NCBI GenBank assembly: GCA_003222395.1
Contig: QHWB01000039.1
Span: forward strand, 310,001 to 374,000
Direction: 5' to 3'
Source of the DNA: Acidobacteriota bacterium
GTDB lineage: Bacteria > Acidobacteriota > Vicinamibacteria > Vicinamibacterales > CAVVIG01
Length of the DNA stretch: 64,000 nucleotides
The notes below the pieces were generated by a model, which worked only from the letters and a program-made list of their open reading frames with translations, was not told the DNA's origin and did no database searches. This document shows positions 28,567-63,998 of the stretch, one piece after another. The position numbers were made by a program, and so were the translations under genes. Numbering within the stretch: the stretch's first letter is position 1; every line of letters begins with the position of its first letter.

Positions 28567-29493
28567 ATGCGCGCGCTTGTCGCAGACGACGATCGGACCA
28601 CCGCCGTCATCGTATCCAACGCACTGAGCAGCTGGGGCATCGACGTGGACCTGGCGCACGACGGAGCGGCGGCGTGGAACATCCTGAACTCGCTCCGTCC
28701 CCCTTCACTCGCGGTCGTCGATTGGACGATGCCCGAGCTCGATGGAATCGAATTGTGCCGGCGCGTGCGGACGGCGCCTCGCCTCAATAGTCTGTACGTC
28801 CTGCTGCTGACGGCGCGCGATCGCCGCTCCGATCTCATCGCCGGTCTCGACGCCGGCGCCGATGACTACATGACCAAGCCGATCGATCTCGACGAGCTGC
28901 GCGCCCGCATCCACGTCGGGATGCGCGTCGCCGCGCTGCAGCAGCAGCTCGCCGAGCGCGTGACCGAACTGCGCCGCGCGCACGATCATCTCACCGAGCT
29001 CGTGAGCACCGATGCGCTGACGCTCGTCTACTCCCGCCGCTGGTGGTTCGATCTCGCCGCCACGGAATTCTCGCGCTCGCGTCGGCACGGCCGCGACATG
29101 AGCGTCCTGCAGCTCGATCTGGATCTGTTCAAGCGCGTGAACGACCGGTTCGGCCACCAAACCGGCGACATGGTGCTGCGAACGTTTTCGGACATGCTGC
29201 GGCGCGAGTGCCGGTCGTCGGACCTCGTCGGCCGGCTCGGCGGCGAAGAGTTCGCCATTGCGCTGCCGGAAACGTCGGTCGATCAGGCTCAGACGCTCGC
29301 GGCGCGCCTGACGGAAGCGTGTCGATCGCTCGTCGTCCGGACGCCCGCCGGCGAAGTCACGTGGTCGTGCAGCATCGGCCTCACCGGCCTGCGGCCCAGT
29401 GACGAAACCGTCGACGCCCTGCTTCGCCGCGCCGACACGGCGCTCTATGAAGCGAAGCGGGCCGGCCGCGATCGCTGGAGCGATGCCGCGTAG
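28567..29493 (+). CDS. Response regulator receiver-GGDEF diguanylate cyclase (PleD-like)
   Basis: MRALVADDDRTTAVIVSNAL...VVDWTMPELDGIELCRRVR...KPIDLDELRARI...STDALTLVYSRRWW, GRLGGEEFAIALPET. Confidence 0.92.
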   Translation: MRALVADDDRTTAVIVSNALSSWGIDVDLAHDGAAAWNILNSLRPPSLAVVDWTMPELDGIELCRRVRTAPRLNSLYVLLLTARDRRSDLIAGLDAGADDYMTKPIDLDELRARIHVGMRVAALQQQLAERVTELRRAHDHLTELVSTDALTLVYSRRWWFDLAATEFSRSRRHGRDMSVLQLDLDLFKRVNDRFGHQTGDMVLRTFSDMLRRECRSSDLVGRLGGEEFAIALPETSVDQAQTLAARLTEACRSLVVRTPAGEVTWSCSIGLTGLRPSDETVDALLRRADTALYEAKRAGRDRWSDAA

Positions 29494-63885: not shown

Positions 63886-63998
63886 CTCCAAGTTCGGCAG
63901 CTAAACCACCGTCCCCCAGCCTGCAGACGAGCTGCCGGCCGCGGTAGGTTTACAGCTTTGCGTTCCCGCACACGGCGGGATTGCCCTTTCGCTTGGAA
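63886..63998 (-). ncRNA. c-di-GMP-I (GEMM-I) riboswitch-like leader
   Basis: Minus strand UUCCAAGCGAAAGGGCAAUCCCGCCGUGUGCGGGAACGCAAAGCUGUAAACCUACC...GGUGGUUUAGCUGCCGAACUUGGAG; P1 UUCCAAG/CUUGGAG, P2 CCCGC/GCGGG, P3 AGCU..AAACC.ACC/GGU.GGUUUAGCU. Confidence 0.78.

Follow-up and report, generated by a model that had tools for sequence, protein, structure and literature searches.

Docking of a GNRA-capped P2 onto P3 is a usual, although not strictly required, feature of class-I c-di-GMP (GEMM-I) riboswitches. The leader described here shares with Vc2 and with Rfam family RF01051 the order of the conserved motifs, the three-helix junction and the positions corresponding to G20-C46, C92 and A47. 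It differs from them, together with its homologues, in a P2 without a GNRA loop, a P3 in which no tetraloop receptor was seen, a P2 of variable length and a P1 of fixed sequence. The core is also common to c-di-GMP-I-GGC (RF03167), which belongs to the same Rfam clan as RF01051 (CL00126) and is common in other Acidobacteriota; several RF03167 matches, in contrast to the leaders considered here, keep a GNRA-type P2 loop and do not precede the same protease gene. The cGAMP (GEMM-Ib) riboswitches of Geobacter have a related aptamer fold but carry a changed nucleotide (A) at G20, whereas a G is present in all leaders of this group. Sequestration of the Shine-Dalgarno sequence by the aptamer likewise occurs in the preQ1 and SAM translational riboswitches, the aptamers and ligands of which are unrelated, and PMC10622847 describes translational riboswitches that hold the Shine-Dalgarno sequence inside the aptamer with no separate expression platform. 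A partial search of the literature returned no paper on this leader group, on the L094-type group described below or on a c-di-GMP-I aptamer with the Shine-Dalgarno sequence inside P1.

The leader lies on the minus strand at the end of the window, a 64,000-nucleotide stretch of an acidobacterial contig. From its sequence, it is best interpreted as a divergent class-I c-di-GMP (GEMM-I) riboswitch that would switch off translation of an HtrA-like, putatively membrane-anchored protease by direct masking of the Shine-Dalgarno sequence in P1, a reading to which a probability of about 0.72 is assigned.

Anatomy and detection of the aptamer

The elements named in the original prediction were all located on the minus strand, at the positions given here. 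The labels G20, C46, A47 and C92 follow the numbering of Vc2, mapped through the Rfam alignment.

63998-63992 (-): P1 5' strand UUCCAAG, the anti-Shine-Dalgarno, with conserved core CCAAG
63990-63977 (-): GAAAGGGCAAUCCC
63983-63984 (-): equivalents of G20 and C21 (Vc2 numbering) in the ligand-binding core, from the Rfam alignment
63965-63979 (-): P2 hairpin CCCGC-CGUGU-GCGGG without a GNRA tetraloop, from folding and leader comparison
63974-63970 (-): P2 loop CGUGU
63967-63955 (-): GGGAACGCAAAGC
63955-63961 (-): GCAAAGC core with the equivalents of G45, C46 and A47, from the Rfam alignment
63957-63951 (-): P3a 5' strand AGCUGUA, read from the sequence and the alignment
63906-63950 (-): P3b, the variable extension of P3, from alignment and folding
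63905-63899 (-): P3a 3' strand UUUAGCU, read from the sequence and the alignment
63893-63898 (-): GCCGAA junction, with the C92 equivalent at 63897, from the Rfam alignment
63892-63886 (-): P1 3' strand CUUGGAG, containing the Shine-Dalgarno GGAG
63889-63886 (-): Shine-Dalgarno GGAG, 6 nt before the ATG at 63879-63877
63995-63893 (-): match to Rfam RF01051 (c-di-GMP-I), 37.0 bits
62926-63879 (-): protease gene with ATG start, 317 aa (Pfam PF13365)
L004 1272-1244 (43-71 nt beyond the window end): sigma-70-type promoter TTGACA-17-TACAGT

The helix originally called a long P3 is present and is better read as P3a, which has 7 positions with one U.U mismatch, plus the variable P3b. The c-di-GMP-I tetraloop receptor was not seen in P3b, the consensus receptor letters being absent from the window in the Rfam alignment. 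The replacement of the usual P2 tetraloop, noticed as CGUGU in the window, turned out to characterize the group, with GNRA lost in 23 of 25 leaders. As P2 is GNRA-capped in only the remaining two, nearly every member of the group lacks the customary P2-P3 dock, and this loss is the reason that the leader is filed as a variant of the c-di-GMP-I family.

RF01051 matched the leader over its full length (1-87) at 37.0 bits, so that the search suggested by the original prediction ended above the gathering score of 35, with E = 0.0013 when all families are searched against the whole window; the 7.7-Mb genome holds no second RF01051 match. Taken alone the score is marginal; the unique genome match and the homologous leaders that precede this gene in 24 further genomes put the leader well beyond chance. 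A recognizable aptamer is kept in 25 leaders (the window and these 24 others). An Rfam search of 20 leaders of the order saw 5 of them at all, and 2 reached the RF01051 threshold; the low scores reflect the departure of P2 and P3 from the family. In the same 20 leaders RF03167 gave two weak matches (32.8 and 30.0 bits), both short of its gathering score of 59. By core and fold the group is a member of GEMM-I, but a variant one, with a fixed P1, a Shine-Dalgarno sequence in P1, one dedicated gene and a dock that is mostly gone.

A covariance model (R1) built from 24 leaders matched 26 of 162 genomes of the order, with one copy in each, and in 25 of these 26 the match lay directly 5' of the Trypsin_2 protease. 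The exception is L093, in which the aptamer is cut off before GCUGCCG and is not followed directly by the protease. Across a 396-genome sample of the phylum, strong R1 matches were confined to the same order; four weak matches elsewhere (L094-L097) were set aside as ordinary RF01051 or RF03167 members. Close copies of the protease within the family carried an alignable leader in 12 of 14 cases, the window's included, the exceptions being L022/L047 and the partial L023.

The promoter listed above, which is followed by roughly 160 nt of leader, falls outside the window, as only 2 nt of the window lie upstream of the P1 5' strand. No terminator-like site was present in the leader region scanned, on which ground terminator-based control was rejected. 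A separate expression platform was not detectable, as had been anticipated, and this reading, like those of family, motif order, Shine-Dalgarno position and P2 loop, holds in relatives too.

Conservation of the leader across genomes

In a plain MAFFT alignment, 80.9% of cells were paired, against 31-50% when the structure was slid, and 44 two-sided changes were counted against 21.5 +/- 3.8 in shuffles. The model-fitted alignment, which leans towards the model, gave 83.6% against 32.6-47.6% and 74 two-sided changes against 28.7 +/- 4.2. Of the covariation expected in P1-P3 of orthologous leaders, that of P2 and P3 was found; in P3a, for example, AGCUGUA/UUUAGCU becomes AGCCGGA/UCCGGUU and AGCUGGA/UCCAGUU in relatives. 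P1 showed conservation of its core but no formal covariation. CCAAG and CUUGG pair completely in 21 of the 25 leaders, and this core scarcely changes, so covariation is uninformative for P1 and its support comes from conservation. P1 pairing survives sequence change in two leaders: in L032, CUGGGAG faces a strand with an additional C, and in L039, CUCC faces GGAG. The ligand-contact positions G20, C46, A47 and C92 are kept in all leaders read (the window and its relatives, including L091). The length of P2 varies between 14 and 53 nt, and other letters (CCA, UCA and AAU) stand at the AAA internal-loop positions.

The placement of the Shine-Dalgarno sequence inside the P1 3' strand, first noticed in the window, recurs: 21 leaders have GGAG within this strand, at a spacing of 5-8 nt from the start codon, shifted by one base in L039. 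In L041, L049, L055 and L056 the start codon is 58-95 nt further downstream; all four of these keep CUUGG and three (L041, L055 and L056) have lost GGAG, a comparison by which the two jobs of the strand can be told apart. CUUGG is kept for P1 and the aptamer, and GGAG is retained mostly where it serves as the ribosome-binding site. On the protease tree, two groups set well apart have the direct form, and the moved form turns up in at least three places. In L041 (2400-2500) and L056 (2380-2500) the distal Shine-Dalgarno sequence sits in a potential hairpin of its own, a separate platform, the hairpins being of the types GGUGCUC...GAGCACC and CUCCG...CGGAG.

About a third of the protease orthologs lack the aptamer or have a broken one, so the control is dispensable. 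In one protease clade (L043-L046, L051, L053 and L058), P2 and GCAAAGC are missing while the 5' stretch CUGACAACCAAGCGUUUAGCUCA and the downstream GGUAGCGGAUUUCGGAG block are kept, and several of these leaders hold a remnant, GGCUGCCGA..UGG; they look like leaders retained after loss of the ligand core. In L042 (upstream of 226) and L093 (minus strand, about 1542), the aptamer is apparently interrupted by a REP-like palindrome, ACCGCCTTTCAGGCGGT, leaving CUGCCGAACUUGGGAG only in the former and only the 5' part in the latter.

Other aptamers of the same clan were also noted. L005 and L006, from the same order, are c-di-GMP-I-GGC-like aptamers with a downstream hairpin of the type CAUCC-UU-GGAGGAUG around the Shine-Dalgarno sequence, with which the P1 5' strand UCCUCC could pair instead. 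L094, L095, L097 and L122, from another acidobacterial family, are c-di-GMP-I or c-di-GMP-I-GGC aptamers with the Shine-Dalgarno sequence in P1 (CCUUAUC/GUGAGG before AUG), followed by open reading frames of about 180-200 aa. Judged by these leaders, the arrangement is not unique to the protease group, and they possibly represent an independent origin of it.

The downstream protease and its genome context

The protease begins with a hydrophobic segment at its N-terminus, which a charged linker joins to a Trypsin_2 domain at residues 133-273 (PF13365, 42 bits). H146, D193 and S259, in the contexts VKHAVV, SGDWAI and GVSGGG, are invariant over 12 orthologs and, by position, would form the catalytic triad. 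The original prediction had spoken of a membrane-anchored, trypsin-like protease; the Trypsin_2 domain agrees with the latter, and the N-terminal hydrophobic segment suggests anchoring in the membrane. A sequence profile of the protease reached DegP-like chains weakly (E = 0.0006), and its scores against the DegS/HtrA NCBIfam models were far below cut-off, so that by profile searches the protein appears weakly HtrA/DegS-like. Its AlphaFold model is poor (mean pLDDT 54).

Of 27 genomes in the family, 17 have matches to the protease at E <= 0.001, and 13 of those 17 (the window genome excluded) are close, at 64-75% identity. Orthologs occur across one acidobacterial order. In named genome records 39 relatives were found, some of them partial; most of the records bear the title Acidobacteria, and gp6, Luteitalea and Vicinamibacterales occur as well. 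Three orthologs (L065, L044 and L066) stand in records titled Candidatus Doudnabacteria and Acidimicrobiia, which are probably mislabelled bins rather than cases of transfer.

Upstream of the protease gene, mutL is found in the window genome and in four further loci read (L031, L035, L048 and L049). An open reading frame for a small hydrophobic protein (MTAIYYTGRLAQLMGMWLLL..., L004 1286-1456, minus strand) lies between mutL and the protease promoter, and endings like that of this frame (FVAGWAITR) occur upstream in other genomes too. The genome carries 13 GGDEF loci; one is inside the window, at 29005-29475 on the plus strand (138 bits, in a 344-aa frame).

Ligand and sign of the proposed control

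The anatomy of the leader, its conservation and its association with the gene are read from sequence; c-di-GMP as the ligand, the OFF sign and the physiological role we infer. At high c-di-GMP, the ligand would lie between G20 and C92, A47 being inserted between its bases, and would stabilize the junction and the short P1 (UUCCAAG/CUUGGAG); P1 would then mask the Shine-Dalgarno sequence and shut off translation of the protease. At low c-di-GMP, P1 would be too weak against competing pairings of its flanks, leaving the Shine-Dalgarno sequence exposed and the protease made. In the window's family, a CGCUU-(3-6 nt)-AAGCG hairpin may be the competing, anti-sequestering structure. Because GGAG lies in P1, it is occluded in the P1-formed structure, with a predicted effect on translation. 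Vc2, studied more than any other relative, is a translational OFF switch in which binding requires P1 (PMC9262584). A role for the protease in motile or dispersing cells is a reasonable guess.

For the isolated window aptamer, the minimum-energy structure contains P1, P2 and P3, with a P1 probability of 1.00, and P1 probability was at least 0.89 in 18 of 24 isolated aptamers. When natural flanks were added, P1 probability fell: with 30-40 nt on both sides (ViennaRNA), P1 was predicted in few leaders and the Shine-Dalgarno sequence was often paired elsewhere, so that the ligand-free Shine-Dalgarno sequence is not predicted to be clearly open. A clean two-state picture was not obtained from free-energy folding with natural flanks. 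Weakening of P1 by the flanks would be expected if P1 needs the ligand; shuffling the upstream 12 nt, however, gave a similar P1 penalty in most leaders, so this weakening is not a specific signal and an antisequestor role of CGCUU/AAGCG is not established. The hairpin, a possible antisequestor, overlaps the P1 5' strand (contig about 374003-373990, at the window end); although its loop changes, most clade A leaders retain it.

The features in which the group departs from its family bear on the identity of the ligand. With P2 of 14-53 nt and a GNRA cap in only 2 of 25 leaders, variable AAA internal-loop positions (CCA, UCA and AAU) and the RF01051 threshold reached by only 2 of 20 leaders, specificity could have changed along with the lost dock and the remodelled P2 and P3, to another cyclic dinucleotide (for instance 3',3'-cGAMP) or to some other ligand, with the same masking of the Shine-Dalgarno sequence. 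The leader would then belong to an order-specific, mostly Rfam-invisible GEMM-I branch serving one protease gene, with the P2-P3 dock discarded, the Shine-Dalgarno sequence in P1 and a ligand that is no longer c-di-GMP. We consider this unlikely, as conservation of G20, C46, A47 and C92 speaks against it. For cGAMP in particular, G20A is discussed for cGAMP-selective GEMM-I aptamers in PMC6274999, and PMC9481103 attributes such selectivity to one key nucleotide change in the pocket; the association of selective aptamers with a G20 change disfavours cGAMP specificity here, given the G at this position in every leader.

Even with c-di-GMP as ligand the sign could be reversed, binding refolding the flanks and freeing a Shine-Dalgarno sequence otherwise caught in another structure. 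GEMM-I switches of both signs are known (PMC9262584), and the frequent pairing of the Shine-Dalgarno sequence without P1 in natural flanks would fit an ON switch. Such a switch would not be expected to carry its Shine-Dalgarno sequence in the ligand-stabilized P1 strand, however, and this placement in 21 leaders from two well-separated protease clades makes the ON reading quite improbable. That the leader is a relic, a former riboswitch now acting as a weak translation-lowering structure or protein-binding site without ligand sensing, is suggested by the clade that lost its P2 and core region but keeps parts of the leader (L043-L046, L051, L053, L058) and by the two interrupted aptamers (L042, L093); it is nonetheless very improbable, because, wherever the aptamer is present, the unpaired core nucleotides, for which no structural role beyond contacting the ligand is evident, stay invariant next to a freely varying P2 and P3b.

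If the preferred reading, direct masking by c-di-GMP-stabilized P1, is correct, the leader would be a c-di-GMP riboswitch without a separate expression platform, in which the short helix that closes the aptamer also hides the ribosome-binding site. The group would add aptamers that Rfam models currently overlook, with 18 of 20 below threshold, and its natural variants at the same gene, with the start moved or the aptamer lost, make the evolution of expression platforms testable on one locus. For the largely uncultured Acidobacteriota of soil and groundwater, the switch, if true, would link c-di-GMP with the regulation of a protease at the cell surface or in the periplasm.
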